From Norana najaformis (taxonomy: Eukaryota > Annelida > Clitellata > Crassiclitellata > Hormogastridae): 64,000 bases of DNA. The DNA lies in NCBI GenBank assembly GCA_964023275.1, contig OZ029921.1, positions 7,167,306-7,231,305 on the forward strand, read 5' to 3'. Positions 6,318-64,000 of the stretch are shown here, in pieces. The position numbers and the translations under genes are program-made. Each line of letters opens with the position of its first letter. Positions within the stretch are counted from its first letter, which is position 1. The notes under the pieces are model-generated. The model saw only the letters and a program-made list of their open reading frames with translations, did no database searches and was not told the origin of the DNA.

Positions 6318-12667
<6,350 letters not shown>

Positions 12668-16085: not shown

Positions 16086-18702
16086 CTGAAAGAATTTCAG
16101 TGCAATCAACTTCAGACTTCAACAGCTGACAAAATTAAGATCAGCTTCCTCTGGCAAGCTGTTTGTCTCTTTCTGTTTCACAAGAACAGTGTTGAGTGTT
16201 CCCAGTGGCTAGACCAAGGCTTCACTGCCCAGTTCTGAGCATTCTCTCACTTCTCTTGTGTAAATCAGACCTAAACTTAAAACTCATCTGTTTCAGCTTG
16301 CTTATCAACATTAGCTTAACTTCTGGTTTCTCTGACTTAGTGAATTTTGACTGGGCCTCTCTAATGGATTATGATTTGACTGCAAGTTCACTTCAAGCAA
16401 CTATTAATTGATGTTTTAAGTATTACGATAACATCACTATCAAAGTCATTAGATTAGATCAGATTCTACCAACTAAAGATTAGTGGTTTCTGTGAAATCT
16501 CTGAACACTAATAAGTAATATGATAAAGTAATGTAATACAATTTGCTGTTCAGGTAATTTAATTTAATGTAATATGATGTAATGTAGTGTAATCTGAAGC
16601 TGATATGTCCTTGTAAGTTGACGTTTGGAGTTAGATTCACCCCCAGCCAATTGCAACTGAATTTGCAACCAAAAGCTCCAGACAGGAATATCTGCATCTT
16701 GGTCTAGCTTCACGTGCTACACAAATTGTCTCTTATATAAATTTATATACCCATTATTATTTTATATGCATTTAAGCTTCATTTTGAAAGAGATCTGTAT
16801 AGAAACCTGTTCTTGAACCTCTTGTCCTCCTTCTGTGCCCTCTCTAAAAGAACATGTAGAGAACATGTCAGTTAGCAAAATCACCAAACGGTAATACCAA
16901 TAAGTGAGTAATATCAAATCGTTACTTTAATAATAATAGAAAAAATATTAAACAGTACTCTTAACAGAATTTCAACTGGATTTGGAAAAATCTCAAATAT
17001 TGTCTATCTTCAAAATATTTTGGCGTAGCACCACTGTATGATATATCACCAAACAGTGGGTCTGAGGAAGAGAAATAACTGATATGAAGATTTTCCACAT
17101 CGGTTGGGAACATCTCAGTACTTACAAGCCTTTAACACATCTCAGTACTTACAAGCCTTTAACACAAGCCTGTAAGATCACCTGATCTTAATGCTACAGT
17201 TAGAAACACATGTTAACAGTCGCTTACCTGCATTTCAACTGATTTAACCTAGATGAACATCACTGGACTCACCTGCATTTCAACTGATTTAACTACATGC
17301 ACGTCACTGGAACTTACCTGCATGCCAAAAGGGAATCAGCAGTCTCCTCACAGTCACTGAAACAGCCAAAAATCCAATGCAATATGAAGTAATTTGACGC
17401 TTTCATAGAGCACCAATTCTACGACACTCCTCTTCACCAGCAATAACTGCTAATACTCAAGAAATCCCACCCTGCTCCAGCGAATCCGCTGCCTTCCCAT
17501 TTCTCTCAGCTTAAACACAAACCACCCTAACAGGTCATTTCCTCCTTCTCTCTCTGGTCTTCTGACAACTGGGCTCAAGTGGTTCTTGACATGGTACCTT
17601 TGGATAACCCCACCGACTTGATGCAGCACTCGTGAATAAGCTGGTGCCCTGAGTTTAGCCTTTACGTAGTGCTTTTGAAATTTGGAGTTTACGATTACGA
17701 TTACTCTTAAAACAGATGCAGGAAACTAGGACCTAATTTTTGAGGACTCATAGATATATACCAGATAAGCAGGTACCTTCCTTATTTTCTTTCCTTTATC
17801 TTACCATAATTCCTTATCTTTTTTATCTTATATTACTGCATAGATTACCTTTATTATCTTACCCCACCAAAATTACGATGCTTACCTTACCTTAGATTTC
17901 CGACAACACTGACTTGGTACTAACATGGAAGGAGTGTGGCCCTGTCTTGGTGGACTTCGACCTCTGCCTCCACAGTTGCGGAATATAGAGAATGGATCGC
18001 TATCGATTGGCTTTGAAGGTATCTGCCCCTGGCTTTGATCCCATGAAAAAGTACAGCAAAAAGAGAAAGATAAATCAGATGACCTTGTTGAATAACTCTA
18101 AGTCTGGGAAATAAGGACTGATTGTAAGTACTGTGGCTGGCCAGAGTTCAATGTTTTATAAACTATAAGCACCAATTTGAAACAAATCCTTTGCTGAACA
18201 GAAAGCAGTGCAGAGATTTAAGTACATGGTTTATGCACTCATCTTTGACATGATAGTTATAGCTCTAGCCAAAGAGTCCTGAACTCTGGAGTTTCTGCAT
18301 ATTTGATTTTGTGATACCAGTAATCAAGGCAACTAGAATCCAATGGGTTTGCTAGAGATATTCTTGAAGACATGGGACAAAATACCTAATTCTAACTACT
18401 GGTATGACACAAATATACATGTATAATGACTCACAGCCTACAGCTACCATTTACGTAGTCGGTGTGATACAGTAGAATAAAAAACAATACCCAAGCAGGA
18501 TCAGTCAGCTAAACAAGCAATTCATTCAGTTGTAAAAATATAAGCCATTCAAAATTCTGAAGTTGATGTGGAGTGCCCAACAGGCCTAATAATAATAATA
18601 ATAATAATGATGATAATAATATGATAATAATAATAATATTATTATTAATGATAATAATAATAATATGATAATAATAATAATAATATTATCATATTATTAT
18701 TA

Positions 18703-27700: not shown

Positions 27701-30700
27701 AGTGTTCAACGTCCAGTTAGATGCAGGTCAATCAGTAAATTTTACATCTAGTAAAATTATATCAAAATTAAAATTACATCAAAATTACATTAAAATTTAC
27801 ATTAAAGTAAGTATTTAGCTGAATTAGGTCAAGTGAGTTTACCGAAGCCTCCTCGCTCTTGAGTTTCTTGACCAGGTCATTGTTAGTTTCCTTCAGAGTT
27901 TTTGTGTCTTCCAAAATATCTTCGAACATTGACATCAACTGCAAAAATGAAAGACAGAACACAGCATAAAAAGGTAAATAAAGAAGAAAGTGTAAACAAT
28001 ACACATATAACTACACAGCTGTAAAATATACACAATTTGGTGAAAATTCCAGAAAATTAACTTCAGCTGAAAAAGCCAGAAATTTAAAAACCATCAGCTG
28101 AACTTATCAAGAAAAACGATAGAAACTTCATTATCATCCATCGAAAATAAAAAAATAGAATATCAGAAAATGTATAATCAAATTAACTTCTGCTAAATGA
28201 AGCAAACCATTCACATCACAGCAAGGATGACAAAAAGGAGGAGCAAAAGGAATAGGAGTAGCATTAGGATGCAAAGAATAAAAAGGATATAATTGAAAAT
28301 ATTTGAAATATATTTGGAATATATTTGAAATTAATTGTAATATCTAAAAATCAGTACCAGATAAATAAAATTAAACTGATTACTTTACAGTTTAATATTC
28401 GATTTTGTTTAACTTGGTTACAAAACAAATTATGTTAAATTCTGCTAACTTTGCTGATGCCTTGTGTATTTGCATCGACGGTGGTGGAAAGTTTCATTGT
28501 CTGCCACATCTCAGCCACCGGGCGTGGCTTTGAATCTTTTTCTCTAACACGCTCAAAGAGCTCGTAGTTTGCTGGAAGAGAATTGAGGTCCTTCCAGTGC
28601 TGTTCCAGCTGGATGACACGGTCTTCCAGCTGGTGGTAAGGAACATGGGTTCCAGAGCCAGGTCTGCCCACTGACCTAATTTGCAAAGTGCAGCAACAAC
28701 AAGCAACCATGGTGGGACATCGGCAAGTCAGGTGTCGCCCGACTCAGAAAGTGGAGTGAGGGAAGTGAACAAGCAAGCAAGTTGGTCAATCAGTAAGTCG
28801 GCCAGCCACCCAACCAACCACCAACTCAGGTCATGAATGAATGATGACAACTCTCATGTTCTTGACCTGCCTAATACTGGCTTTTTATTATTTTTCTGAC
28901 TGGCTGGCTGACTGACTGGCTATCTGGCTAATCAGTATAACTATTAGCAAAAAACACAAGGCATAATTGCAAACACATTCACTCATTCAACTGGCTATTC
29001 AATTAAAATTAGCCAACCACGCTGTCAGGCAGAAATTCAACTTGGATTCTAAACTGTCAGAACAAATGCCTTGGTGAAATTAAAATTTGAAAATGAATTT
29101 ATTACCAAAAATTTATATATACATGTATATATGTATATATAAATATGATAAGTAAAAATCTGAGACCCCAAAGTGGTCTGAAGCTAGGGCAATGGCCGCT
29201 CTTTTGCAAATAGGCCCAAGAAATAAAATACAACTTCATACTTTGTTGTCTTTCCATCCTTCGCTCTGGTTTTCAAATCGTTGTCTGATTTTGACAGCCC
29301 CAAATCGGTAATGCTGAAAACAAAAAATCTTCTTCACTACTTAAATTAGCATACTACAATTTGTTTCATCTTCATCAACTTCACTGATGGCATGGTAGTC
29401 TAATGATGAACCCAAAACTTAGGAGTTCAAAACTCCACTACAATACCATTCAGCAAGGAGTGCCTTTAAGAGGTTCTTAGATGACATAAACAATTCCAGA
29501 TACAAAAATAAATAAAAAATAAGGAAACAAATACACACATACATGCATACATACATATACACACACATATACACAAACATACATTTGGCAAACATATTCA
29601 GATTTCTGCTTATTTGGCACCTTCTAGCAAACTGGGTTATAACTGCAGATAAGTGGACCCAAGCTTCATATGGAGAAGACAAACAGAATCCTCACATTAT
29701 GTGCAATTGTCTCCCTCAAGAATTGCGACTTGAGCTCCTTTCTCTCCCCTCTCAGTGTTCTGCAGGCGCCTGAAGACTGTACTGTTTAACAGCGATTTTA
29801 CTTTTTCGGCTCGGAAGCACCTCTGTTGAGTTTATCCTCTAAGAGGTGCTCTATAAATCTCAAATTACAATTACAATGTAACAAAGGAGGATGGGCACAG
29901 TGGCTAATGACTGATCTGTCAGCCTCATAACTTCCAATGTGTCAAGTGAAAATGTCATCAAGCCATGCATTTGCAAGGAACGCTGGTCTGTTGTTGAATT
30001 GATCTAATCCTATTCAAGTACTGACAATGGATCCAATGGAGTTTGCCAGTGGTGACATTTCTAGTTATCTGCACATTGTCTGCTTATTGACTAACATTTT
30101 ATTCTTAAAGAACTTAATCACTACTTATGCTACTTAGGTTAAGATTGGCAGCGCTTTTGTGAGATACATAAAAGACACAATATAAAGTTTCTAGATAGAT
30201 AGATACATACATACATCTTTCCAATCCTAGGACCACATATCTGAGGACTCTGAGGTATGTACCAATTAGACATTTATGTAACACCACTATATGGAAACTG
30301 CTTACTTGTCCTGGAGTGCCTTTTCATTGTCAACCAAATGGCGACGCAGAAACTCGTGATCCTCTTCTCGGATCTCTGCATTCGCATGTCCAATTTCCAA
30401 CCTAACAAAAGAAAAATAATACTTGAGACAAAAAGTCATTTTGGGGTCCCTTAGTGAAAGCGGGACAGGCACAACACTCAGAGACACAAACTGTCTGCTA
30501 TTTGACACACATAAACTGTGGCCTATATAGGAAATGACACTATTTAGCTTATGCAGTCATTCTTGCCATATTCTTATTATGAAGATAATTACACAACTAC
30601 CATGACTAGAACATTTTAAAACTAACAGCAACAAATTATTTATACATTCCATATTTTAAAGTTTTATCTCCTTTATATGTAATTGCACTTGTAAACTTGT

Positions 30701-32724: not shown

Positions 32725-33045
32725 AAATGTACACGGTTTTATATAGCGACCATGTAGCCTCAACCTGCTCATATTTTACCACGAATTTATCGGCCGAGAT
32801 CCTTCACCACCGCTGCCCATTTGAATGGACGCCATGCCATTTAAAAATGCATTATTTACTTACTTATGTTACTCAATTGCTCTAAGCATGAACCAATGAC
32901 TGCAGTTATTCTGTTCTTATTCTAAGAATAATTTAAGGTCCCCGTGCACGCCCAAGATTTCAATCTCTGAAATATAGCCACTGTCGGTATGCGAACCAGC
33001 AAACTCACACGTACAACTTAACCAATAAGCTAACCAGGCCAGCTT
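32725..33045 (-). repeat. SINE family A, interrupted copy
   Basis: Minus-strand tail at 32725-32845 and head at 32935-33045, separated by about 90 bases of foreign sequence at the same 'ATTTAA' point where others read straight through. Confidence 0.6.
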
Positions 33046-34897: not shown

Positions 34898-35037
34898 CTG
34901 ACTGCTTGCCTGATTCTTGGATTTTGACCCGGAACCGAACCCTTTACATATCGATTTTGTTTTGACTGAGCGCCTGTAAATAAGCTTTTTCTCGCGACCT
35001 AGCTTTCGTTGGGCGCTGTAGAAATCGAGTTTACGAT
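34898..35037 (+). repeat. SINE family B copy
   Basis: Intergenic copy with the same core, ending GGGCGCTGTAGAAATCGAGT. Confidence 0.68.
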
Positions 35038-35538
35038 ACAGGCCTACGTGACGCATTGTTGTGCTAGAGTAACCTATAGGTCTCGAAGATGTAGGCACAC
35101 GACGTAGGCCTATCACTTAGTGGAAGATGTAGCGTCGTGCACCCGCGGACTATTTGGCGCAATTATTTCACAACAATGTTTCCATCGCAAAATGTGTCGG
35201 ACGATGAATACAGCAAGAACCTGTTCGGGAAATGTTGAGCATCCGTATTGAGCATCTGTAGCATAAATAAGTTGCTTCATTCCTTATGAGGTGTCGTGTA
35301 GGTCTACCGAACTAAAGACATTTTAAGCACTGACAACACATATAGGCCTAGTTGATCACATAAAACAGAACTTTAATTTGTAACATATTATAGGTTTGTT
35401 ACATGTATTGGCCTACAGTTGCAAAGTGCACACTTAACAACAGCAAAATTGGATTATAACCTTAAGGTATAGGTCTAAAGAACACAAAGTCATAGAAAAA
35501 CCGATACCGACTTTAAAAAGAACCGACCAAGATACACA

Positions 35539-35747: not shown

Positions 35748-35900
35748 CTGCCTGCCTGCCCCTTGGATCTTGACTCGGAACTGAACGTTACCAGCTTACC
35801 GATTATGTGTTGACTGAGCGCCTGTGAATAAGTTTGTTCCTGCGTCTTAGCTTTCTTTTGGCGCTGTCGTCGTCGTCGAGTTTAAGATTACGAGTACAAT
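35748..35900 (+). repeat. SINE family B copy
   Basis: More diverged copy; the 'GGCGCTG' end is followed by a short TCG expansion (CTGTCGTCGTCGTCGAG) not seen in the others. Confidence 0.62.
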
Positions 35901-41270: not shown

Positions 41271-41363
41271 GATTAGATTTGATTATCTCTTATCTAATAT
41301 GGTATTATCTAATGATGTGGCTTGTAGCCTAACACGGAACAAAAGCGTGCTGCTAAGGCTGTC

Positions 41364-41670
41364 ATGGCCAAGGAATTGTACCGTTTCCTGCAGACCGCTG
41401 TTGGCCAACAGTACACAGGATCCAATTTCTATCCCACTACCCTTGACATTCAGCAGAGCGTCCGGAGTGGCTGGCTTCGGAAACAAGGAGGCGTTGTTAG
41501 GTCATGGCAACGACGCTGGTTTACCATCAAAGGCGACCACAGTTACTACTATGCAAATGCAGATGAGACAAAGTCACCTCTTGGGGTCATCTTCCTACCA
41601 GGGAGTCGTGTGGTCGAGCACCAGTTCAATGCCACTGATCCAGACAAGTTCCTCTTTGAAATTGTTCCAG
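41364..41670 (+). CDS. ARHGAP22/24/25: RhoGAP gene exon 1 (as modelled)
   Basis: Begins MAKELYRFLQ and carries most of the PH domain (RSGWLRKQGG, KGDHSYYYANADETKSPLG). Donor CCAG/GTGGTT. The exon probably extends to the acceptor near 41331, adding 12 in-frame codons. Confidence 0.88.
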
Positions 41671-44600
41671 GTGGTTTGAAAATGATGTTTGATGTTTGGC
41701 ATCTCATATCTTGGTATCTAGTATCTTGGCATATCTTATTTTGGCATCTCTTATCTTGGCATTTCTTATCTTCCATTTTTTTCACTGTTTTCTTCTCCAT
41801 ACACTTTTGTCATCATCACTGTTCAGAATGATGAGAACACCAGTAAATGGTTACACTGACAACAAAGATGATTGTCTTGAACATCATGATTATTATCATG
41901 ATTATGATTAAGATTATTATGATTATGATTATTATGATTATTATGATTATTATTATGATTATTATGATTATTATTATGATAGTTATTATTATTATTATTA
42001 TAGTATTGATATAGTATTGTAATTTTGAAATGAAGAAATTTTAATATAAGTGGTGGTTTGTCTTAGATAGCGCCGACAGACAGCGAATGGGACCCACTCA
42101 TGAGACGTACCTTCTTGCTGCGGATTCAGATGAAGAAAGAAAAGAATGGATCAAGGCAATCAAACAAGTCCTCTATGCATCTGTTGGAGGAGGTCTGACC
42201 TGACCTAGTTATTAATGAAGCCTAAACCTGACCTTTTTAGAATTGGCCAGTCATACAGCTATAATATTAACATAATCTTACCTGACCTTTAAAAATTGTC
42301 TCCTCAAATGACTTTTCCAATAATTCTAATCAATGACCTTGCACTGATATTGGTTAATAAATGAACTTAGATTGGATTTAATTTTAATTGACTACATTTG
42401 TTTTTTGGTAATTTTTGTAATCATGTTTATAAATATTTGAAACAATATTTTTGCTGTTTAATATTACATTTTGTTACTCGTTATTCTATGTGTTGTCTGA
42501 CCTTATAGCAGAGCTATTGAATACCTAAGTAAAGCATCTTTTAGCATTATTACTATGATATTTATTAATTAACCCTTAACCCAACCTTTTAATGACCCTG
42601 ACTTATTTATCAACCAAACCTCACTGGACGAACCTATGGGAATATTTTTAGCAACAGTTTGAAAGGTCAAGGCCTTGCTGCTATGTAATATGTAATGAGG
42701 TGTTCTATGGTACTATTGAGGGCTCATGCAAGGAATTACACCAATGTCTCTTTTCTTTAAGTTAAATTGTTTTCTGAAAATTTAGCAATTTTTGGTCGAT
42801 CACTGGAAGAGACACTTCAGTTTGAAATGGTCAAGGATCCTCGAAGAAAAGTTCCTGAGATTGTACAGCTTTGCGTGGAATACATCCTGAAGGAAGGACT
42901 TGATGAGGAAGGAATTTTTAGGTGGGTGTTTTGCTACACCAACTTGTATGTGTATATATGTAAATAATTTATATATGGATTGACTGACTGACTGATTGAT
43001 TGATTGATTGATTGATTGATTAGTCATATTATGGTTGACAAGGCTTCAGATAGATTGCCTGACTTGCCTTTCAGTCGATCTGCCAACTAATTGATTCAGT
43101 GGTTTAAGATCAGTTGACTGAGCAGTCTGATTGACTGGCTGGATAATAGGATTACTTAACTGAAATGGTCAATTTTTCAGTAGATAGAACTTTTAGTTCA
43201 TTGTAGATGTCGTGGTTGATCTGTTCATCATTCCATTTGTTCATCCATCCATCCATCTGCTGATTCATCCATCCACTAGTCCGTTCATCTGTAAGTCCAT
43301 CCATCCATTCATATATCCTGTTATCTGTCTCTTCTTCCATCCATCCATTCATTCATTAGGTCAAGATTGCTTGATCACAGGTTGCCTGGTCGCACCACCC
43401 TCATCAAAAAAATCTGTGACGACTTCGATCGAGGTGAACGACCCGAAATCGACGTCCCTGAGATGGACGTTCACACGGCTGCCTCGCTGCTCAAGTGCTA
43501 CCTTCGTGACCTTCCCGGTCCACTGATCCCATCAGAGTTCTACGAATCAGTCATGCGTATCATCATGCGAGAGATGCCAGTTGCCGAGGAGCCTGCAATT
43601 GATCGCCTGAAAGAACTCATTCGCAGCATCCCGGTTGCAAACTACAATGTGCTGCAGTACGTCTGCCAGTTCCTTCAAAAGATAGCAAGCCATGCGGAAA
43701 AGAACAAGATGACTTCCGTCAACCTAGCCACTGTCTTTGTTCAATGCTTCATCCTACCAGAGGATGATGATCCAGCTTTGCTTATGGCAACAGCAAGCTG
43801 CCGAACCATGGCCACCTTGTTTCTGATCGAACGAACTGACCGAGTGTTCAATGTCGAGTACACGAGCGAAGGAGGGGCAGTTGTTGTGGATGATCTGCTG
43901 GGACTGGAATCTAGTGGAGAGAAAGTACTGAATGAATTAGAAACAGCCCAGACTGTGTCAATCAACCCGGATCTTCTGGGTTTGGAGATTAACGGCACTG
44001 AGGTTCCCGCTCCAGCACTTCGGCGTCATAACACAGGACGGTTCTCGCAGCGAACAGCCTCCATTGAGGTCATGATGGGTCACAGTTTGTGTATGATGAA
44101 TGAAAACAAAAAACGTGGGGCGATGATCATGCCACAGTTGCGCAGCAGTAATGACAGCAGCGACAGTGGAAGTGAAACCCAGTCCACCTGCAACGAACCA
44201 GGTCCTTCTGAGGTTCAGAAGCCTGTGCCTGTGAAACGAGGCAATAGCATGGACAGAACAAAGCACCCAGTTGCACCACCACGACCGAGTCAAAAATCAA
44301 AGCCTGTGACAGAAATGCCGACAACGACCCCAACATCAGTGAACCCAAAAACATCAGACTTAACGATAACTACCCCAACATCGATGACAGCAACAATAAT
44401 GACCCCAAAAGCATCAAACTTAACAATAACTACCCCAAAATCAATGACCCCAAAAACGACCCAAACAGCCGCTCCATCTGTTGGCAATGACAGTGATGCT
44501 GTGGAGACTCTGATAAAACTCGACACCCAGAACTTTTCTGAGGTGGAGCTGCGAGTGCACATTGACCGGCTGTGTCGTGAGCTTTTCGTGAGGCAAAAGA

Positions 44601-44758
44601 TCATCGAGGAACTTGGCGCGCAGGCTCGACTCACCGAGCAGAAACATGAGAAACAGGTGGATGCACTTTTGCAGAAGATGGCAAAGGATAGAGCAGAGGC
44701 TGACAAATGCTCAAAGAAACTGCATCTGTATATGGAAAAATATGGCACCACTGAGTAA
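41364..44758 (+). CDS. ARHGAP22/24/25: PH-RhoGAP-coiled-coil protein, ARHGAP22/24/25 type
   Basis: Coding exons 41364-41670, 42067-42192, 42786-42921 and 43381-44758; 1947 nt, 648 residues. The PH domain (about 34-143) starts SVRSGWLRKQGGVVRSWQRR and ends in the helix EERKEWIKAIKQVLYAS. The RhoGAP domain (about 148-335) follows directly, with the arginine finger in GIFR (Arg190) followed by LPGR, the conserved Lys228 in LLKCYLRDLP, and ANYNVLQYVCQFL. A Ser/Thr/Pro linker and a C-terminal coiled coil (about 560-640) complete the FilGAP/ARHGAP25 layout. Family role: GTPase activation of Rac/Cdc42, with actin and lamellipodia control. Oddity: the usual FGPN motif is FVQC (Cys312 where Asn is expected). 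An acceptor at 41331 keeps the frame open upstream of the first ATG, so another five-prime exon is likely. Confidence 0.93.
41880..42003 (+). repeat. (ATT/ATG)n trinucleotide repeat in RhoGAP intron 1
   Basis: GATTATTAT-type repeat between exons 1 and 2. Confidence 0.9.
42067..42192 (+). CDS. ARHGAP22/24/25: RhoGAP gene exon 2
   Basis: Acceptor TTGTCTTAG, donor GTCTGA, phase 1 both sides. Encodes the end of the PH domain: GPTHETYLLAADSDEERKEW and the following helix. Below the length of an obvious ORF but unmistakable in frame. Confidence 0.9.
42786..42921 (+). CDS. ARHGAP22/24/25: RhoGAP gene exon 3
   Basis: Acceptor AAATTTAG, donor AG/GTGGGT. FGRSLEETLQFEMVKDPRRK, then IVQLCVEYILKEGLDEEGIF and the split codon for Arg190, the arginine finger. 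Confidence 0.9.
42976..43350 (+). repeat. (GATT)n and (CATC)n repeats in RhoGAP intron 3
   Basis: GATTGATT at 42976-43020 and CATCCATC-rich sequence at 43240-43350, the latter running into the acceptor of the last exon. Confidence 0.88.
43381..44758 (+). CDS. ARHGAP22/24/25: RhoGAP gene exon 4 (terminal)
   Basis: Acceptor TTGATCACAG chosen over one 15 bases upstream because it restores GIFR-LPGR without an insert. It encodes the rest of RhoGAP, a Thr/Pro/Ser linker with short internal repeats around 44330-44460 (TITTPTSM / TITTPKSM), and the coiled coil ending MEKYGTTE before TAA. Confidence 0.92.
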
Positions 44759-47302: not shown

Positions 47303-47435
47303 TAAAATGTAAATGTACACGTTTTCCTGTAGCAGCTATATGGCCTTGACCCTGAATTAATTGGGTGATATCCTGCACCACTGTTGACCATTTGAATGGG
47401 CCCCACACCATTTAAGGTCCCTGTTTACTGACCCT
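47303..47435 (-). repeat. SINE family A, tail fragment
   Basis: Minus-strand tail half from the GTACACG terminus to CACACCATTTAAGGTCCCTG. Confidence 0.6.
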
Positions 47436-47844
47436 ATAAGTACCTTTTAAGTACCTCAAACAGTGCTACCTTTGCTACCACAGTGATCAAAGAGCTCATT
47501 AGGAGCAATCAGTGCTCAGGTAATTAGACAAGTCACAATTTTAAAAAGAATTTGATGAATTGCAGTTTACTAATTGTATATTTGAGTAATCAGCTAGAGC
47601 ATAACTTCTAACTGTGAATTAAATTTGTAACAATTATATTAACTACCAGTATTGCAGTTACTCGTAAATCTGTAGCAGGAAGATGGTTTGTGTGCATAGC
47701 AACACCATCCAAAATACATTAGTTTGTGAAGCCAAATGACTATTCAGGACTAAGAAAACAGCTTGGCTTGTAATTAATAAATATTGCTAGACATAATCAG
47801 TGTTTTGGGCTTCCTTTGTATCATTCTGGCCTGACCTTTGAACT

Positions 47845-48047: not shown

Positions 48048-51000
48048 CTAGAATAGTTACAGCTCAGCATAAACGATATGAACAGACGAGGGCCTAAGCA
48101 TCTTCAGTGCATCAGTACAGACTAGAGTGCCATTTAAAAGGGAAATAGAAGTAAATCATGTAACTACAGGCCAGTCAGTTTAACTAGTGTTGTGTGCAAA
48201 GGTCATGGAAAGAATTATTAAGGATAATATAGTGGAGCATTTGCATGAGTATAATATAATAAAGGGCAATTAACATCGATTTACTAGAGTTTGTTCATGT
48301 TTGACAAATCTGTTAGAGTTCTCTGAAGAAGTTTATGAAAGGACAAAAGAAGGGAAACTGGTGGATCAAGTTTACCGAGATTTTGCCAAAGCATTTGACA
48401 AAGTACCTCATGTAAAGCTGGCCAAAAAGTTGCAAGCATGCAGGACTAGAGGGCAGGTACTAATGTGGATTCAGAGCTGGCTATCAGGCAGGAGGCAATG
48501 AGTGAAACAAATATTATAGCTGGACAAGTTAGGGTTAGCGTTAAGGTTTAGGGTTGGGGTGCCATAAGGATAAGTGCTTGGACCACTGCTGTTTGTACTT
48601 TTTATCAACGACATAGATGATGGGAACCTATCTAAAATTTCTAAGTTTGCAGATGATACGAAACTGCAGAGCAGTGGCTGATGAAGCAGTGGAGTTGCTG
48701 CAAAAGGATCTAAGCAGAATATTTCAATGGTCTCAGGATTTGCAGATGCTTTTTGTTTTAGAAAAGTGCTTGTTGATGTACATGGGAAAGGGAAACAAAG
48801 ATTTTGCATACGAAATGGGGTAAGGTATTGAAAGTGAGTGAGGAAGAAAGGGACTAGAGAGTGATTATACTTTCAAGGCAATATACTGAAGCAGCAAAAA
48901 AGACTAGCTCGACCTTGGGTATGATCAAGAGGACAACAGTTAGCAGAGAGGTTGTACAAATCACGGGTGAGGCCAGAGTTGGAATATTGCATCCAAGTAT
49001 GGAATCTGAAACATGACATGGAACAAGTGGAGAAAGTGCAAAGAAGAGCTACCAAAATGATTTGGGGTTACAAGGATCTGAGGTATGAAGAAGGTTGAAA
49101 AGGTGTGGGATAACAACATTGGAGAGAAGGAGGAGCAGAGGAGACCTAATTGAAGCTTATAAGATCATCAAATATGTCAGCGGACACTGTCTCAGCCTTT
49201 AAGATGAAGCTAGGTATGATTGGCTATTAAACATTCCTGGCTAATTTGCAGTGGTTCTAACACAGGTTGTATGTGTTCTGAACCACTTAAAACCCTAGTT
49301 GTGTCATGTCATGAGAGATATTAATGATCTGACAAGATCACATCTTGGCTTGGCATGGCATGGCATGGCATGGCATGGCATGGCATGGCATGGCATAGTA
49401 ACTAGTTGGCTTTAAAGCCTGTGTTCCTGATGCATCTCAAGAAAATGGTCAGGTTGAACTGTGGTTGGACTGGATGATGAATGGATGGACTGAAGGATGG
49501 ATCCAGGGTGGGTGGGCTGATGGATAGACGGAGGGATGGACTGACTGACCCACCGACTAGCTAGCTGGTTGATGCGTTGATTTACTGATTGCTTGATTCA
49601 TTGATTTACGGTGATTGATGATGATGGTGAATCACGGTGACTGCCTGAGTGACTGTCGTAATTAAGTGATTGAAGTTATAGTTAATTTAATTAGACCTAC
49701 CTCTAGACTGTCCATCTTGGGCGAATGGTGATTGTGGCGCCACCTGCTGATTCCAGAGTGCCGTAGTATTCTTTGGTTTGATCATGTCTTTGAGTCGATT
49801 TGTAACCGGATAACTTTCTCCTCCAACTCCTCCTCCCTCCACTCTTCCTGCGCTCTGCGCACTGTTGTACCCCAGACTGGACGGCACCACCGGGGCTCCG
49901 TACCCCACCTGGTACTGTGGAGCTCCTTGGCGAATATTCTGTGGCGCCGCCTGTCGACCAGAGGACTCTGCCGATGCCCATTGGTCGGCTTTAGCGCGCC
50001 GCTTGGCGAATAGGAGTTCCCCTCTGCCATTGTTGAGCGCCATGTCTTCTGCGAGGCTGTAGGATGGCGCGGACCCACCGCTAGGTGGCTCCTCTGGTCC
50101 ACCAATGATGCCTGGATGGACATCCGATGTAGGTCTGACCAGTGGCTGGGGAGCCAGCGCAGGCGCCAGCAGAGGACGAGGCTGAGGTGCGCCAAGGGTC
50201 TTCGGTGCCCAGGCGTTGGGGTTTGATCTGTTTGACTCTTGAAGGGCAGGTTTCTCCGGAACAGGGTCGGGTCCATGCATCGTCCACTTATGGGCGTTTT
50301 CCCGACGCCGGAGGTACATCTTCTGACCGCGGGAATTCTTGTTTTCCGGGGCAAGGACGGAGTGGGCGACATTCTTGGCCATCTTGACCCTCTCCTCGAG
50401 GGTCGAGAACCCGTAGCCACCGTCTGAGGACGAACCGCCTCGGAATACTTTCACTGCATTAAAGAAAACACAAAATCCTTTAATTCAGTTGTTTATTTTC
50501 TTAAACTTATACAGCGCTTATTGGTGATAAGGCATCAATCTATGGCGCTGATGGTAAAGCGGCCGTAACAGAGGAACCTTGGACCTGGAATCCGCACATT
50601 AGGCCCTACGAGTTGAGCGCAAGTCCCAAATGGAAGAGTGCTAGCCAAGTGAGATTGTGTGATTCCAGTCCCTGACAACTCAATTGGCCCCTGTTGGACC
50701 TACACTCTACTTTAACTGACCACCCGTTGCCACCGCTGTCACAATGCGAGCCAGCTTAGGGCCAGTGCACGTGGTTGTCTGGACAACGACACAATCTCAC
50801 GATTCCGTCACTGACAAAGCCGTTTTACAGTGAACTCGCAAACCAGTTTTACTGTGAATTGCGGGGACAAATACGAACGGAATGATGGAAGTGGCGGAAA
50901 AGGTAGAACAAAGGAAGACTGAATGAAAATTTCAGTCTCCAGCGAGGAAAGTCATCGCAAACTGCCCCGCCACTGTATCCATCCAGAGTCATTATCCGAA

Positions 51001-54000
51001 TCAAGTTTAATCCATCTCCAATACCATCTGCAGGTCAGTCGGGAAGTTTCAGTCAACTCATATTGGATTGCCATTGTGCCGGATATTTATCTGCATAAAA
51101 ATCGAGCGATCACGACTGCAGAGGGTGAAATGAATCAGGCATGACGAAGATGTTGAACATAACAATGGTGACTAGATGGTGATAAAGACGATGATTGTGA
51201 TATCAGATGATTGCGATCATGATCATGGTGAAAACCGAGTACCATTACAGTGTGACACGCTGTAACGATTGGCTGATTGATTGAACGAACAAACGGATCA
51301 AACAGTATATAAATAAATAGAGTGAATCGTTGGGATTCGACCCTCCCTTGAGACTGTCGATAGAACATTCAGTTAATTGTAGATGTCTTGGTTGATCAAT
51401 TCATCCATCCATCTCCATCAACCAGTCCGTTCACCCTTTATGTCCATCCATGGTTTAGCGCCATCGATTCGTGTCTTGTAATTAGATAGCGGCACTCGAC
51501 AAATGACATAAATAAATGGGGAAAAACATATAGACTGTTCAATGACGATCTATGGGGCTCTTCTGCAGATACTCACAGTGATCGATTGGAGGGGCTACAG
51601 GAGGCGGTGGGGCGAGTTCCGTCGGTACCACAGGGTAACCAGACTGCGGTGGAGGGACAGACCCAACCATCATCGGCCCAAGAGGAGGTCCAGGAGGCGG
51701 TGGTGGAAGAGCTGGAGAAGCGCCGTAGCCACGTGACCTATCCATCTCTTCCACGCCTGCATGGCCTGCAGGACCAAATCCCGGAGGTCTCCAGACGTTA
51801 GCTTGAACTGGAAGAGGCCCTGTTGCCGAAGGGTTTGACTGACCACCAAACACAGACCACTGTCCACTCGGGACCCCCTCTCCCTCCTGACCATACGGCG
51901 GATGATAGTCAGCTGCTCCATATTCAGGGATGGGACGTGGAGCGCTCCCGTACTCGAAGGACTGATCAGTTTCGGCTGACTGCTTCGTCGGGTCATAGAC
52001 ACGTGAAAAGGACACGTTCGAATGGCTCCTGACCCCGGCCACAGCAGCCTCGTGCCATCCACCTTCGGGAGGCTGGTTGTAGTAGCCATCCGTCGCTGCA
52101 GGGTTTTCCATCTGTGGCCCTCGAGAGTCGCCGGTCAGTGGAGGATTGCTGCTGTAGGTCGTCAGAGGTTTCGACGGTTGCTTCGTGGGTAGCTTTGATC
52201 CCGGAATCCATTTCGGCGCTGCAGCGATCTCGACCCTTTCGATGCGGTCCATCTGGCGTGGCTTGATTGGCCCTCTGTCATTCGCAAAGGGGCTGGCACC
52301 GTACACGGCTTCCGGTGGGTTGTAGTTGTCTGGGGCCACTTGTCCCGCTGGTCCATGAGGGAACTTCTGTCCCCATGGGGCAGGTGCTGCCTGTGGGGCA
52401 GGTGCGGCGTCGTAGAACTGTGGCTCCACCTGGCGATTGAACGATGCTGGCGCTGCTCTTGTGGGGTAATTGTTGTACGCGGCTGGTGGTGGTTCTGGTT
52501 CGTAAGTGTTTTGGGGATGGGCACCGGGTTTGTACAGGGGCTCCGGGTTGTACGCAGGCTGAGACGGTTGAAACTGAGGCTCCGACTGGGAGTTATAACC
52601 AAGCTGAGGATTCGTGACGTGCTCTAGTTCAGGTCTGTAGCCTCTGTTCAGATGGCCATCAGGTTTGTTATATTCTGGCTGTGGTGGTTCGGGGTTGTTA
52701 TCATACTGCAGATGACCGCTGGGTTTATATGGATATGCCGGCTCTCGATTGTATCCGATCTGGGGCTGAGTGTTAGGCTGAGGTTCTGGGTTGTATCCAT
52801 ACTGGGGTTGGGTTCTAGGTTGAGGTTCTGGGTTGTATCCATACTGGGGTTGGGTTCTAGGTTGAGGTTCAGGGTTATATCCATACTGGGATTGGGTTCT
52901 GGGTTGAGGTTCTGGGTTGTATCCATACTGGGAATTAGTTTCTGGCTGTGGTTCTTGATTGTACCCATACTGAGGATGAGTTCCAGATTGATGTTCTGGG
53001 TTGTATCCGAACTTGGGATGAGTGCTTGGCTGTGGTTCAGGATTGTATCCAATCTGGGTTCTAGGTTGCGGATCGGAATCGTATCTATTATGGGGATTAG
53101 TTTCTGGCTTATTTCGGGACTCTGGCTGATCACTGCCGGGATGGACGTGGACAGCCGGCTGTGGTTTGGCAGCGTGTTCGATACTTAGATTAGCACTCGG
53201 CTTGTATGGGTAATCTGGCTCTCCACTAATCCCGAACTGTTGATGAGAACCGGGATGTGATTCACTAGTATGTGCGAACTGCGGATGACTGTCAGCTTTA
53301 TACTGAGACTCGTTGCTGTTCTCATATTTGGGTTGTGGCCCGGGTCTCTGCTTCGCAAGATAACCATATTTCGGTTCATTACCGTAACTGAACTGGGGCT
53401 GACTCTCATAGTTTGACTGGTTTGATTCGTGGCTGAACTTTGAGTAGGTTCCGCTTGGGCTCTGAACACTTGGCTCATGAACTTTTGGAGCCGAATGACT
53501 TTCACCTTTATACTGAGACTCATTGCTGTTTCCATAACTGGGTTGTGGCCCGGGATATTGCTTCTCTAAATAGCCAGATTTCGGGTCTTTTCCGTAACTG
53601 AACTGGGGCTGACTCTCATAGTTTGACTGGCTTGATTCATGGCTGAAATTTGAGTAGGTTCCACTTTGGCTTTGAATAGTTGGCCCATGAACTTTTGGAG
53701 CCTGATGAAACTTGGACTGGCTCTGAGCCGTTTCGTTGCTTGTCTGTGTTTTCGGTTGAAACGTGACTTCTTTTCCGACCCGGATTTCAAAGTTTGGACT
53801 GGCTCCCACACGAGGTGGCTTTGCTTCAGTTCCGAAGCCAGTCTCGTTCGGATGGAACTGGATCTCGATGCTTGGTATCGGCTGCTGACCTCGACTCACC
53901 CCGGGTTTTTCGATGCTCTCCTTCGATCCATCCTGGTAGATGACATAGGTCCTCGCTGGTTCCTGGGTCGTGTCAATTCGGACCTCGTACGGCTCGCTGG

Positions 54001-56544
54001 TGACACTGCTCTTGTGGACACTCGTCTTCGTCGTCCATCCTCGTTCGTCTCGACGCTGAATTTCGCCTTCAGAGGGAGCTCCCAGAGGGACCGGATATCC
54101 ATGCTCCTCGCTCCTTATGACGGAGAACTCTGGCGGGAACTGACCAACGCGTGGATCGGCTGAGGAACTCGTGTAGCTACTGAACTCCTGTTTCGTGACC
54201 TTCGTCAACGTCGTTCCGCCGAACTTTTCAGTCTTGACCTCTTCGACGATGCGTGATGTCTTTCCGCCGTCCGTTGACGTTCGCTCTTCCCTGGCGTAGT
54301 AGCTGGGAGTGTTCTGCGACGACTGGCCCACGGCATCATCATCTGGGGTCTGGATGTCGCTCGAGCGGCTCTCACGCCTTGCAATCCGCATCTGCTTCAG
54401 ACTTCCGCCGGAAGGAGGCGCTTGCAGACGAAACTGCACTTCCGGTTGTGTTCCGTTCAGCACGTGATCGTTACTGGAAGTGGCTGAAGAGTTCTGGACA
54501 AGTGCGCTGGCTTCCGATGCAGTCAGTCGCTGGATTTCAGGACCCAGAGATCGCGCTACCGAATCGAACTCGCTCAGGGCGTTCTTCCCTCTGGTACCAA
54601 CACAAATAACATGAGATTCAAGCTACGGCTAGAGACTATAGGTAAAGTAATCCAACGAAAGGCAGATTACGGTAAGATAAAATAAAACCAGGTACAGTAT
54701 TAATGATATCTTTTCAGACATCGAAGTCTCTTAAAACTATAAAATATAGGCCTACATTATGTAAAGTAACGTATACATTAAAAGCAGACACTAATATAAA
54801 TAACAGATAGCAGTTCTTGCGGTCTATACTCAGAAGTTACTGCTGTTTTCTGTAGCAATCAGACGCAACAGGCTGTAAGGTATTCGGTTTCAGCTGCAAA
54901 ATCAATTGTGGCCGATTGACAAACTTTTAAAGCCTAAGGTCATACAGTAATTTTGGAATAGATCCTATCATTTATCTAGTGAGTACTAGCGAAATATAAA
55001 CGATGATCGACGCCACTATAAAAATCTCCGCCTCTCCGTTGCATCATCGAATCCGAGATGCCCTGATCGCAAACGGCATACGTAAGTCTGCGGCTCGAAA
55101 CCGTTGAAACGGAAACCAATCCACCGGGTATAGGTGGACGGATTCAAAATGGCCGTCGGGCTTTGGCGCTATTCTATCTAATATCGCCTGAAATCGCACG
55201 AAATCCAAAGCAGACACAAGAAACGACTCCGAAACGCAGACTCGGACACAGGAGAAGCCCGAAAAAACGAGAATTATCGCTCAAATGCTGCATATAAGGA
55301 ACTAATCTTTTAAAAATGAACTAGACGCACAAATAACGACCATATTAACGACCACCGAACAATTAGCAAGTCATTTTGGTTCCAAGGTTGCAGACTCTTA
55401 CAGCCTGCAGTTAGTTATTAATTTAAAACTATTAACAATCTAGCGTGTACTAGGCCAGTATGCGTCGATACATAAAGTAGCGAGTACTAGGCAAATATGC
55501 GTCGATACATAAAGTAATCGAGTATATACGAGAACGTACCTCAAGGCGTGGACTGTCAAGGCGGGGATGTTACCTTCCATAAGGGCAGTGGCTGCTGCAT
55601 GGCTCAGTCCCTGGCTGCAAATATTATTTATAGCCAGAATGACGTCACCCTCAAGGAGTCCGGCCACTTGCGCTTTGCTCGATGGACGAATCTAAAAAGA
55701 ACGGCTTAAATCATCACCATCAAAGTCGTTATCATCAACATGACTATCATCATCAGCAGCAGCAGCATCACGCACATTAACTGTTGAATGCTTTATCTGA
55801 TCTCATCTTCCCTTGCATGCCATACCTTACATTACGTTCCACTGCCTTACTTTACCTTATCTCACCTAACTACCTTATCTGACAATACCTCAGCTTGTCT
55901 TGTCTTATCTCACCATACCCTATATTGCCTTACCCTATTTTTTATTTCACGTAGAAGCCTTTTTTGAACCTTGTTGAAATATATTACTAGTTGGGTGAAT
56001 ACAGGACTTCCACCCTTAAACACCATGGCTTTAGGCTGAGATGTGGACGCGGTGGCTGACCGTATGCGTAGCATGGAGAGAGCCAGCTGGCTTGGTCATA
56101 GTATATTTCAACGCATCACACTTTGAAGGTTGTAACGCCGAGCATTTGCCAAGAGCGGTAACTGATGAAAGAGTAAGTGGAAGGTGGCTTATTATGGAAA
56201 TAAACCTGAGCAGTAAGGACAATGGCCCATGGATAATAATAATAATAATAAAATAATAATAATAATTTTTCAGCTCCCTGAGGGATCATAAATACCTCGG
56301 GGCAAAAAGAAAAAAAATTATTATTATTATTATTTTAAAAAATAATGAAAATAATAATAATAATAAGAAGAAGAATAAACACAACCGTAAAGTAATAAGC
56401 CATCGTATTTTGCCGAGTAACTGCCTAAGTAGACTAATAATATTTTACCTTTGCAACAGTCAGTGGGCTCTTGTCACCCCCCAGTAGTCTGAATCCGTAG
56501 GGTCCTCCGCCCGCCATTTGTATCCGAAGCAGTTGACTTGCCAT
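47845..56544 (-). CDS. SYNPO2: Synaptopodin-2/myopodin-like PDZ protein, five exons
   Basis: Exons 56449-56544, 55540-55691, 51577-54590, 49701-50453, 47845-48047; 4218 nt, 1405 residues, phases consistent. The PDZ domain (about 1-83) has the carboxylate loop GFRL in GPYGFRLLGGDKSPLTVAK, then SSKAQVAGLLEGDVILAINN. This arrangement resembles SYNPO2 and the PDLIM/ZASP group. No LIM domain follows; instead exon 4 carries synaptopodin-type basic motifs, KMYLRRRENAHKW (1132-) and NGRGELLFAKRRAKADQW (1228-), which decide for SYNPO2. The middle is a long disordered, repeat-rich Pro/Gln/Tyr region. Family role: actin bundling at Z-discs and stress fibres with alpha-actinin. It is convergent with the RhoGAP gene, 3.1 kb tail to tail. 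Confidence 0.9.
48151..49200 (+). pseudogene. Decayed LINE reverse-transcriptase fragment
   Basis: Frame-broken RT: KLVDQVYRDFAKAFDKVPH, then WIQSWLSGRRQ, GPLLFVLFINDIDDG, and KISKFADDTKL (F-A-D-D catalytic motif), then RPELEYCIQVW and VQRRATKMI. Many stops and indels; it lies between the last two SYNPO2-like exons, antisense to that gene. Confidence 0.85.
49345..49396 (+). repeat. (GGCAT)n pentanucleotide array
   Basis: About ten consecutive GGCAT units in the last intron of the SYNPO2-like gene. Confidence 0.9.
49701..50453 (-). CDS. SYNPO2: SYNPO2-like exon 4, synaptopodin motifs
   Basis: Acceptor TTTAATGCAG, donor GTAGGT. Carries KVFRGGSSSDGGYGFSTLEE, two basic R/K-rich actin-binding-like motifs, a proline-rich linker, and TNRLKDMIKPKNTTALWNQQ near the end. 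Confidence 0.9.
51577..54590 (-). CDS. SYNPO2: SYNPO2-like exon 3, 3-kb disordered repeat-rich exon
   Basis: Acceptor GGTACCAG after exon 2 gives RGKNALSEFDSVARSLGPEI. Two long repeats of about 75 residues (APKVHGPTIQ... and APKVHEPSVQ...) lie around 53200-53720. A run of NPEPQPRTQPQYGY-type units covers about 52740-53090, and a Pro-rich end contains LPPPPPGPPLGP. The donor CACT/GTGAGT is strong; without splicing the ORF stops 13 codons later at 51539, a possible shorter isoform. Confidence 0.9.
55540..55691 (-). CDS. SYNPO2: SYNPO2-like exon 2 (PDZ part 2)
   Basis: IRPSSKAQVAGLLEGDVILA, INN, then HAAATALMEGNIPALTVHAL. Acceptor TTTTTAG, donor GTACGT, phase 2. Confidence 0.9.
56449..56544 (-). 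CDS. SYNPO2: SYNPO2-like exon 1 (start, PDZ part 1)
   Basis: MASQLLRIQMAGGGPYGFRL then LGGDKSPLTVAK; donor GTAAAA, phase 0. Confidence 0.9.
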
Positions 56545-57598
56545 TCTTCTTACACGCAGTTTTTCTTACCGAGAGTTCTCTAATTTTTATTTCAAAGCAC
56601 CAAATTCTCGGAATTTAATTACTTTTCGAAATCTTTGTCAGTATTTCTGCCGCGGTTTAGCTGAATTTCGCTGCTAAACTCATGACAATCTTTGACACTT
56701 CGAGAGCGAAAATAACTGTAGACATTTGGCTTTAGAGAAGCTCTCCCTTAAAAGGCTTTCCGCAAAAGCAGGTTTTACGGTCGACTTTTTCAGTCTTAGA
56801 AGAAGCCGGAACGAAAGAGAGGCTGGTCGTCTTCAGAACGAGGCTCGAATCTCAAAATGGCCGACATTGGTCTTCAACTCTAGATGTTTTTCTTCGCTGA
56901 TTTCCTTCCTGGCAAATTCAAGGAGCAAGGAATCCCTCGTCGGAGCAGCTTTCCATCCCAGTCTGCATGGAAAGGCGGTATGTGTGTATGTTCAACCGTT
57001 TCCAGGCTGCTTCTCGTCTCCGCGTTTATCAGCTGCAGACGTAGATAGGGGGCCTAACCTTTACAGCCCTGGCACACGCTCCAGAGCCAGTGCTTCGAGT
57101 ACACGGCGTAGCCTTCTCTCCATGTTTTCCACTTTGGAATGACCTGTACGTACACCTATCAGCCGGCGTGTCTGTCTTTTTATCTGTCTCATTGTCTGTC
57201 TCGATGTCTTTATCTGTCTCTCGCTCTGCCCGAACATATACCAATAGGTTTGGGCTGCATAATTCTGTCTTTGCCAGTCTTCCTATATCTGTCCGTGTTT
57301 CTGTCTGTCTGCTTGCTTGTATGCGTTTGTTTCGTTGGTTTATTGTCGGAGATGTCAAACAGCATGCGTTTCTGTCAGTGCTAATAGCTCTGTACTCTGC
57401 AAGATGTGTTCCTCCGTCTGCCTGTCTGCCTGGTTGTCTGTCTGAGTGTCTTTGGAAACTGATAGTCAAAGTTGGCTGCAACAAAAACGCTCAGACTTAC
57501 TCTGTGCTGTCTGCCGGCAACTGCGTCGGTAATTTTGAAAGTCGTTTGCTAAGTATCTGCGCAGCTGTCTCTCCATCTGTTCGTCAGTCCGTCCGTCC

Positions 57599-57632
<34 letters not shown>

Positions 57633-57716
57633 GTTTGCACAAAAGTCAGTTTGTCTTACTCTTTCACTTGCGTCTGTCTGTTTGCCTATCTGTATGACTG
57701 TGCCTAACCGTTTCTC

Positions 57717-57861
<145 letters not shown>

Positions 57862-58129
57862 GGCGTCCTTCGTCCATTACTAAAGCACTAAACATCTCGG
57901 ACGAGGCATTATATGTTTAAACATCGCCTACACACACCTATAGCTCTTCACGGATTCAGCTGCATCTCTCGTCCCGTTCGCCTTCCACTTCGTCCTTCCA
58001 TTCCATCGCTTTTCCATTCCTCCCCTTCCTCTCTCCCCCTTGATGCCTTGGAATGAAGGAATGCAGTCTAAACCACCAAAGCATCAGCCTCACCGATTCC
58101 AGTAACAGTCTTGGTAAATGGGTAAGAAA

Positions 58130-60807: not shown

Positions 60808-60935
60808 TTACTTGGAATCGAACCCGTCCTGCCTATCGATTTTGTTTTCACTGAGCGTCTGTGAATAAGCTGGTCCCGCGACTTCGCTTTCGTTGGGCGC
60901 CATAGAAATCTCGAGTTTACGATTACGATTACAAT
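60808..60935 (+). repeat. SINE family B copy
   Basis: Starts within the GGAATCGAACC box and ends CGAGTTTACGATTACGATTA. Confidence 0.66.
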
Positions 60936-61469: not shown

Positions 61470-61517
<48 letters not shown>

Positions 61518-61870
61518 CACACACGCACACACATACAGACACACATACAGAAACACAGACACATATTCATTCATTCATTCGTTGAAACAGATAGACACAG
61601 TACAGACAGACACACAGACAGACACACAGACAGACACACATACAGACAGGCGCACACACAGAGGTATTCATTCAATCATTCATTCATACAGATAAACAGT
61701 AGAGACAGACTGACAGTCAAGCAGACAGACAGACAGGCGGTCAGACAGACATTCATTCATTCATTCATCCATACCGACAATACAGACCGACAGTCAGACA
61801 GACAAACAGACATACATTCATACAGACAGACCGACTACAGACAGAGAGACAGGCAGGCAGACAGACAAAC
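61468..61870 (+). repeat. Broken (ACAG)n/(ATTC)n microsatellite field
   Basis: Runs of ACAG and ACAC alternate with ATTCATTC blocks; open frames here are not genes. Confidence 0.9.
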
Positions 61871-62337: not shown

Positions 62338-62906
62338 TTAGAACAGAATTTCGTCCTCCATCTTCGGGTGTTGTCGTCCCACCCGAGGAATCTTTGCCTG
62401 AATGTGTCTTTGACTCCTCGTTTCAGTGCCAAAAATCAGCTGCTTGATTTGATCTTCATTCAGAGGAGGCGCGTAGGGTAAGCTTGATGAGGAGTGTGAT
62501 GGAGAAAGGGAGTAAGAGGAAGATGCGTATTGGGAAGCTTGGGACGTGTACGGCGATAAATCGGATGAAGAGAAGCAGGAGTGAGAGAGAGGAGAGGAGT
62601 CAGAGGCTGAAGGAGAAGAAGTTGATGATGAATGGGTGAGAGTGAACGAGGGGGAGGAGTAGGAAAAGGGAAAGGTGGGAAACGAGAGGCCGTTATCTTC
62701 GCCTGTAGTTCTTCCCACGCGTGGAATCTTGAATAGCTGTCTCCTGCTCTCGTTTTGGACTTGGCTCAGCATTTCCTCTCGTGGCTTCGTCAGCTGGAAA
62801 CACTGATGCGGGGATGATTTCCAGGGTTTCTGCGGCAGAGACGATGCCCGGCATCCTAACTTCGCTTCGTTGGACAGGTACCTGAAGATTGCAGTTGATT
62901 GACCGG
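62338..62906 (-). CDS. KIPRV-amide precursor exon 2: peptide cassettes
   Basis: Acceptor GATCTGCAG gives phase 1 entry. Begins TGQSTAIFRYLSNEAKLGCR, contains both KIPRVGR cassettes, and ends QHPKMEDEILF and TAA. The Ser-rich spacer (about 62430-62660) is a pyrimidine-rich tract, so an unrecognised intron there cannot be excluded. Confidence 0.68.
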
Positions 62907-63414
62907 CTGCAGATCAATCGAAATAAACATGTGAGGCCTAGGCAATAGACCTCCAGTTAACCAATCAATCAATCATTGAATCAGCTGAGAGTCACTTTAC
63001 TAAGGGTCAGTCAATCGAATGGTCGATATTTTGTCAATCAATGTAATTCTTTTTCCTTCTTTCCTTGCTTCCTTCCTTGCTTGCTTGCTTGCTTACTTCC
63101 TTCCTTCCTTCCTTGCTTCCTTACTTACTTACTTCCTTCCTTCCTCCATCCCTTCCTTCCTTCTGTCCTTCCTTACTCTCTGCCTTCATTCCTTCTTTCC
63201 TTCCTTCTTTCCTTCCTTCCTTTCTTAGCACATTATAATGGTTAAGTGCGATTAGATTAGACGAGTGAAATCAGTAGGAAACGGAGGATTAGATCAGATT
63301 AGCGATGTATACTTTATGCGGTTGAAAATAGAGCGGTGACCTAGATGGAAGGAAGAAGCGCTTACTAGAACACCAACTGAGCAGAATCATCGTTGAAAGC
63401 AGTAACGGCCACAT
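62338..63414 (-). CDS. Candidate KIPRV-amide neuropeptide precursor, two exons
   Basis: Exons 63366-63414 and 62338-62906; 618 nt, 205 residues. Exon 1 is a textbook signal peptide, MWPLLLSTMILLSWCS. The body contains two peptide cassettes. The first is R-R / QLFKIPRV / G-R (73-82), predicting pyroGlu-LFKIPRV-amide. The second is Q-R / HIQAKIPRV / G-R (184-194). The shared KIPRVGR is encoded with three synonymous differences and no replacement, suggesting selection on the peptide. A Ser-rich spacer separates them; a Cys35-Cys52 loop precedes the first. C-terminal PRV-amide recalls the PRX-amide (CAPA/PBAN/neuromedin-U-like) peptides, but I recognise no exact family. A competing open frame (62693-62917) overlaps exon 2 but lacks a phase-compatible signal exon. 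Confidence 0.68.
63050..63230 (+). repeat. (TTCC)n-type pyrimidine repeat in the KIPRV gene intron
   Basis: TTCC/TTGC/TTAC tetramers fill most of the single intron between the signal-peptide exon and the peptide exon. Confidence 0.9.
63366..63414 (-). CDS. KIPRV-amide precursor exon 1: signal peptide
   Basis: ATG at 63414, 16 codons plus one base; hydrophobic core LLLSTMILL, then SWCS. Donor GTAAGC, phase 1. An overlapping frame is also open here, but it has no ATG and no hydrophobic core. Confidence 0.65.
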
Positions 63415-64000
63415 ATTCCACGCTGCGTCCAGATAGGTTACCGATGAACAGATTACCAGTTAATTATCGATGAATTATCGAACAGCAACGGATCGATTAT
63501 CGCTCTTCTACTCCCTGTCTTGATTCGATGGTGCTGGTTCCACCCTCAGAATCTCAGACCTCATCCTCGGAACTACGAGGTTGCTACGCAGAGGCTGTAT
63601 CCGAGCCCTCGACTGTTGACGCTTTATATAGCGCCCGATAAGATACCTTCACTTTCTCGGCCACTTAGAAGGACATGACCGGCGTCTTGTCCTTACTTAG
63701 ATTCGCAGCCATCAATCATCGCTCTGAACAGAGCAGGTGGACACTCGAAATCAATGTCTCCTCAGACCAGACACTCTAGACACTGATCTATTTGTTGATC
63801 CGACACCAAAACAAGACCAGTTTATTATTATTTTTTGCCAGTGCTAGAAATGACACTGTGGGGCTTTAAAAGTTCTGCAGAGAATAGAAAAGTTTAGGAA
63901 CGGCTAGAAGATCCAGCGGAGAAAAGTGCAACAGTGTAATTTATTGTAGCTATTGTCTGTCGTTGCTATCATTATTAGTTTTATTACTGATTACATCGAA
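63415..64000. other. Upstream of the KIPRV-amide precursor
   Basis: Should contain the promoter and five-prime UTR; no element recognised with confidence. Confidence 0.45.

Follow-up and report, generated by a model that had tools for sequence, protein, structure and literature searches.

A candidate two-exon gene for a secreted precursor of two amidated KIPRV peptides and its relation to the PRX-amide neuropeptides

Insect peptides of the PRX-amide type are divided in PMC5394484 into pyrokinins with the ending -FXPRX-amide, CAP2b-like peptides with -FPRX-amide and ecdysis-triggering hormones (ETHs) with -PRX-amide. ETH precursors, which are known from arthropods and include crustacean carcikinin, encode two PRX-amides each in insects, and the ending -PRV-amide occurs in two moth pre-ETHs (PMC5394484). 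In these precursors the PRX peptide adjoins the signal peptide, and the layout of pleurin precursors has been likened to that of ETH (PMC8398477). The pleurins likewise belong to the PRX-amides; for lophotrochozoans a link between them and ETH has been drawn, and the same oyster paper regards pleurin as an ETH relative (PMC8398477). Three pleurin copies were found in a slug (PMC7749107) and one to four in other molluscs (PMC8398477). The slug pleurins have 14-15 residues and end in -YPRI/V-amide, and the small cardioactive peptides (sCAP) of the slug end in -AFPRM-amide, with two nine-residue PRX-amides per precursor (PMC7749107).

The receptors of such peptides have been described in several lineages. 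Activation of the slug NMU/PRX-amide receptor needs the PRX-amide core and at least five residues; only three of ten slug peptides were active, whereas the receptor responded neither to the remaining PRX-amides of the slug nor to those of insects or to mammalian NMU (PMC7749107). One survey lists ETH-type receptors for arthropods, molluscs, nemerteans, brachiopods, echinoderms, cephalochordates, vertebrates and acoels, but records the eth gene itself from panarthropods only (PMC6660194). In ticks, the receptor is known and the ETH gene was given as unreported in a 2023 paper (PMC10490126).

Here, the window, i.e., the whole stretch of 64,000 nucleotides that was analysed, is described with regard to a small two-exon animal gene that very probably encodes a secreted neuropeptide precursor yielding two amidated KIPRV peptides. 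This degree of confidence covers the precursor of two amidated peptides and not their receptor.

Gene model and reading frame

The window has a GC content of 42.1% and a CpG observed/expected ratio of 0.68, and its genes have the exon-intron structure of an animal nuclear genome. The precursor gene lies on the minus strand, where exon 1 (63414-63366, 49 nt) and exon 2 (62906-62338, 569 nt) would be spliced in phase between a phase-1 donor, GTAAGC, and an acceptor, CTGCAG, of matching phase. The joined frame comprises 205 residues with a single terminal stop, TAA at 62340-62338 (-). An earlier note on this DNA had joined a signal-peptide exon to a 569-nt exon in matching phase, and its coordinates, donor, acceptor, phase and 205-residue product were all reproduced. 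The features of the locus are as follows.

63623..63630, minus strand: TATA-like box TATATAAA, 216 bases upstream of the start codon, weak on its own
63508..63564, minus strand: upstream ORF (18 codons and a stop) in what would be the 5' leader, following the TATA-like box and preceding the ATG, identified by eye
63366..63414, minus strand: exon 1, MWPLLLSTMILLSWCS, presumed signal peptide, with ATG at 63414 and donor GTAAGC in phase 1
62907..63365, minus strand: intron of 459 bases with predicted splice sites, containing a degenerate GGAA-type repeat
62338..62906, minus strand: exon 2, remainder of the precursor and stop TAA, homologous to P0001, P0002 and P0003
62740..62745, minus strand: dibasic cleavage site RR, invariant in four of four aligned rows
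62716..62739, minus strand: peptide 1, QLFKIPRV (predicted pyroGlu-LFKIPRV-amide), invariant in four of four rows
62710..62715, minus strand: Gly-Arg after peptide 1, amidation donor and cleavage site, invariant in four of four rows
62407..62418, minus strand: RSQR, monobasic/furin-type R-x-x-R cleavage site, invariant in four of four rows
62380..62406, minus strand: peptide 2, HIQAKIPRV (predicted amide); NIQTKIPRV and NIQVKIPRV in relatives
62374..62379, minus strand: Gly-Arg after peptide 2, amidation donor and cleavage site, invariant in four of four rows

As 8-mers of the form TATAWAWR occur at 0.73 per strand-kb in the window, a TATA-like box alone is weak evidence. The upstream ORF at 63508-63564 would be transcribed and is possibly an element of translational control. 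An additional 5' exon is possible, because the window stops 586 bases upstream of the ATG. On the other side of the gene, AATAAA and ATTAAA are absent from the stop to position 60000, and the only variants of the polyadenylation signal in this interval are TATAAA at 61356 and AGTAAA at 60812.

Exon 1 was compared with similar arrangements in the rest of the window. The combination of an ATG, a hydrophobic start (a stretch of mean hydropathy of at least 2.3 after the ATG), a phase-1 GTRAG donor and a purine at -3 was found five times on both strands, exon 1 included, i.e., at 0.04 per strand-kb, so that the 1.09 kb ahead of exon 2 should contain about 0.04 of them by chance. Under relaxed criteria (hydropathy plus any phase-1 GT) the rate was already 0.5 per strand-kb, so the donor contributes most of the weight. 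The signal-peptide exon was seen in none of the three homologues described below, and the case for exon 1, which is plausible, therefore comes from the window itself. P0001 begins with MLFRHLPKEAK, P0002 with MLSSFYWSVADQSASYLPNEAK, and P0003 inside the protein; all three resemble gene calls that start at an ATG lying internally or in an intron.

Could the frame carrying the peptides be fortuitous? The two strands of the window hold 603 frames that run from stop to stop over 45 codons or more, and the amidation pattern PR[AVILMFYWNT]G[KR] matched a single one of them, twice. In 40 first-order Markov re-samplings of the window, the mean was 0.25 frames with one match and 0.0 with two, and a chance ORF is ruled out, as the double match never arose. 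A competing frame is present from stop to stop at 62693-62956 (87 codons; 62693-62917 in the earlier note), and its best segment by codon usage (62705-62878) scored 16.8 versus 10.9 for the KIPRV frame, under codon frequencies derived from the PH-RhoGAP and PDZ exons of the window itself. The competing frame was set aside despite this higher score, because the homology of the KIPRV frame to three database proteins outweighs codon usage.

Several other features were observed in the window. A PH plus RhoGAP gene occupies 41340-44758 (+), with at least four exons by eye (Pfam PH 1.5e-11, RhoGAP 2.1e-32), and eight unnamed database proteins are related to its RhoGAP exon, with identities of 49-72%. 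A PDZ-domain gene is located at 49690-56544 (-), with a PDZ score of 1.1e-8 for the joined first exons and a single exon of about 1000 codons that contains tandem 42- and 210-base repeats; we take it to be reminiscent of synaptopodin-2-like muscle proteins. Codon usage also pointed to possible exons of at least one other minus-strand gene in 6321-28662, e.g., 15534-16088 and 28453-28662, for which Pfam returned no family above the cut-off; the latter is presumably reminiscent of QRICH2-like proteins. Two dispersed repeat families, one (D13-D15, D19) at 2045-2116, 3568-3688, 11614-11761, 32773-33001 and 47344-47464 and the other (D11, D16) at 8619-8726, 10721-10828, 34944-35044, 35792-35892 and 60875-60935, are probably mobile elements. 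Long GACA/GTCT and TTCC (GGAA) tetranucleotide arrays are located at 6670-6937, 57583-57862, 61470-61867 and 63053-63226, the last of which sits within the predicted intron of the precursor gene. For the palindrome TAGGCCTA, 13 copies were counted in the window, compared with 0.88 occurrences expected from base composition and 11.0 from a higher-order Markov estimate.

Predicted peptides and their conservation

In prohormones, convertases cut at basic sites, Gly serves amidation and N-terminal Gln cyclises. The two segments that the earlier note had read in the product, RR-QLFKIPRV-GR and QR-HIQAKIPRV-GR, are both present in the 205 residues: RR-QLFKIPRV-GR spans 62745-62710 and RSQR-HIQAKIPRV-GR spans 62418-62374 (both -), with peptide 1 starting at residue 73 if exon 1 is as modelled. 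The basic sites and the Gly for amidation that are expected of a neuropeptide precursor are thus supplied by RR, RSQR and the two GR, and PRV-G-R, the predicted source of a PRX-amide end, is present twice. The codons of the two KIPRVGR copies (AAG ATT CCA CGC GTG GGA AGA and AAG ATT CCT CGG GTG GGA CGA) differ at three synonymous and zero replacement sites, as had been noticed before.

From these established processing rules, the mature peptides can be predicted. The signal peptide would route the precursor into the secretory pathway, where convertases would cleave after RR, after RSQR (R-x-x-R) and at the Gly-Arg behind each KIPRV; carboxypeptidase and amidating enzymes would then convert Gly to a C-terminal amide, and peptide 1 would acquire pyroGlu from the Gln at its N terminus. 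The expected products are pyroGlu-LFKIPRV-amide (computed [M+H]+ 982.62) and HIQAKIPRV-amide (1060.67), and those of the relatives would include NIQTKIPRV-amide and NIQVKIPRV-amide.

When about 5.8 billion protein sequences were searched, three of 180 candidates proved to be homologues, all unnamed, at E up to 10: P0001, with E 5.2e-36 and 48% identity over 89% of the query, P0002, with E 5.3e-24 and 45% over 92%, and P0003, with E 6.2e-16 and 43% over 69%. P0003 is 98.6% identical to P0002 in the aligned part, so the three count as two independent relatives. Searching with a profile built from all four sequences, again at E up to 10, recovered the same three proteins only, among the 7981 candidates scored, which were those sharing most words. 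Pfam assigned no family to exon 2 of the window at E 0.001, nor to P0001 or P0002 at E 0.1. Bacterial and archaeal genome contigs gave 76 pattern matches and viral contigs 36, with zero confirmed relatives in either. An alignment of the window's RhoGAP exon and seven relatives, run against these two collections, matched 246 times in the viral and 42 times in the genome contigs, again with zero confirmed. A near-match search of a plasmid collection gave no match, and a tRNA scan and an Rfam scan (gathering score) gave 0 and 0 hits.

Across the four aligned rows, RRQLFKIPRVGR is invariant, peptide 1 is identical and RSQR[H/N]IQ[A/T/V]KIPRVGR is retained, whereas the Ser-rich spacer has diverged. 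When columns were counted for the window, P0001 and P0002 (P0003 being omitted as a near-duplicate of P0002), the peptides and cleavage sites had 25 invariant columns out of 27, versus 44 of the 137 other aligned columns (hypergeometric 3e-9), i.e., the peptides are more conserved than the spacer, as expected of a neuropeptide precursor. To judge from the alignment, fixed peptides and sites within a drifting Ser-rich spacer are the pattern of a prohormone, and this pattern also favours the KIPRV reading frame. The earlier note had held that loss of KIPRVGR in close relatives would speak against its proposal; such loss is absent, both copies being kept in all four rows, and the proposed precursor of two KIPRV-amides is now well supported, also by conservation.

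Relation to PRX-amide families and candidate receptors

Judged by its letters, KIPRV fits only the loosest of the described motifs, the -PRX-amide of ETH. CAPA peptides (periviscerokinins) could share a PRV-amide end, but the CAPA motif is -FPRX-amide and both peptides here have -IPRV; likewise, -KIPRV stands in both where the pyrokinin/PBAN motif requires -FXPRX-amide (PMC5394484). Slug sCAP resembles the present precursor in its two PRX-amides of nine residues, but it ends in -AFPRM-amide rather than -KIPRV-amide, and -FPRM-amide occurs in neither peptide (PMC7749107). The precursor would be of PRX-amide type, its membership in any named branch being unproven. The suggestion in the earlier note of a divergent PRX-amide (CAPA/neuromedin-U-like) family therefore holds for the PRX-amide end and not for the CAPA ending -FPRX-amide or the pyrokinin ending -FXPRX-amide, and ETH is at least as close (PMC5394484).

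The peptides would act as neuromodulators or hormones, likely through a rhodopsin-type GPCR; that the target belongs to the PRX-amide receptor class (ETH/CAPA/NMU-type) seems, by analogy, about as probable as the opposite. A PRX-amide end alone assigns no receptor, because only three of the ten slug peptides activated the slug receptor (PMC7749107). Kinship and receptor are open to several readings because PRX comprises only three residues.

It is quite conceivable, though somewhat short of an even chance, that the gene encodes an amidated neuropeptide confined to its lineage, with a PRX ending acquired convergently and a receptor unrelated to those above. The recovery of three database proteins only, even by profile, and the lack of a Pfam family among those searched are in line with this, as is a likeness to PRX-amides confined to three residues. 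However, the narrow distribution may be an artefact, as the search with the RhoGAP exon also returned only eight proteins (7993 candidates sharing most words), which suggests that the database holds few animal proteins.

Alternatively, the gene may tentatively be viewed as an ETH/pleurin-type precursor, i.e., the ligand gene of an ETH-type receptor. Like insect ETH precursors it contains two PRX-amides, and the V of its endings has a counterpart in the -PRV-amide of two moth pre-ETHs (PMC5394484); ETH-type receptors are reported beyond panarthropods, where PMC6660194 records no eth ligand gene; and the pleurins, with PRI/PRV-amide ends of their own, are tied to ETH in lophotrochozoans (PMC8398477). 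Against this, under the present model of exon 1 the first PRX peptide starts at residue 73 and not directly behind the presumed signal peptide as in ETH and pleurin precursors (PMC8398477), and no named eth protein was matched by the protein or the profile search. The slug pleurins also differ in having 14-15 residues and Y before PRI/V, compared with eight and nine residues and I before PRV here, in two copies (PMC7749107, PMC8398477). Moreover, if pleurin is the lophotrochozoan ETH, no vacancy remains in lophotrochozoans.

A divergent precursor of the CAPA/neuromedin-U/pyrokinin type is unlikely: the PRV-amide end agrees with the X of -FPRX-amide (PMC5394484), but I rather than F precedes PRV in both peptides and K occupies the place of F in F-X-PRX. 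Finally, a conserved protein rich in Ser, whether or not it is secreted, whose KIPRVGR serves as a binding motif and stays unprocessed would accommodate the long Ser-rich spacer and a signal exon that is predicted only, but it is very improbable given the conserved basic sites flanking both peptides, the Gly-Arg behind each, the N-terminal Gln of peptide 1 and the concentration of invariance in peptides and cleavage sites.

Novelty and significance of the KIPRV-amides

The precursor of two KIPRV-amides is likely undescribed in print. Among open-licence main texts, none of those containing KIPRV was on neuropeptides by title, and IPRVamide and IPRV-NH2 had no occurrence in the same kind of text. 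Among the matches listed for neuropeptide papers with KIPRV/I/M/L/F in open-licence main texts, none contained KIPRV, and among those listed for variants such as KIPRIa and KVPRVa, none was on neuropeptides by title. KIPR, IPRV, LFKI and PRV each had zero occurrences in the main text of a snail neuropeptide paper (PMC10036341). The description of the precursor as undescribed-looking in the earlier note agrees with the finding of KIPRV in no neuropeptide paper, but is short of proven, because neuropeptide lists are often printed in figures or supplements, outside the open-licence main texts searched.

What emerges is a real, conserved and apparently undescribed precursor of a familiar general type. 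If the animal is an arthropod, this would be one further PRX-amide gene; if it lies outside the arthropods, the peptides would be candidate ligands for the ETH-type receptors reported from several such phyla by the survey that records no eth gene beyond panarthropods (PMC6660194). That the KIPRV-amides are both a neuropeptide family new to the literature and the missing natural ligand of ETH-type receptors in a non-arthropod animal is the boldest proposition, and an unlikely one. Unless receptor or phylum makes the case special, they would add one more short amidated peptide family; as candidate signalling peptides, the conserved pair have predicted structures exact enough to be synthesised and assayed on receptors.
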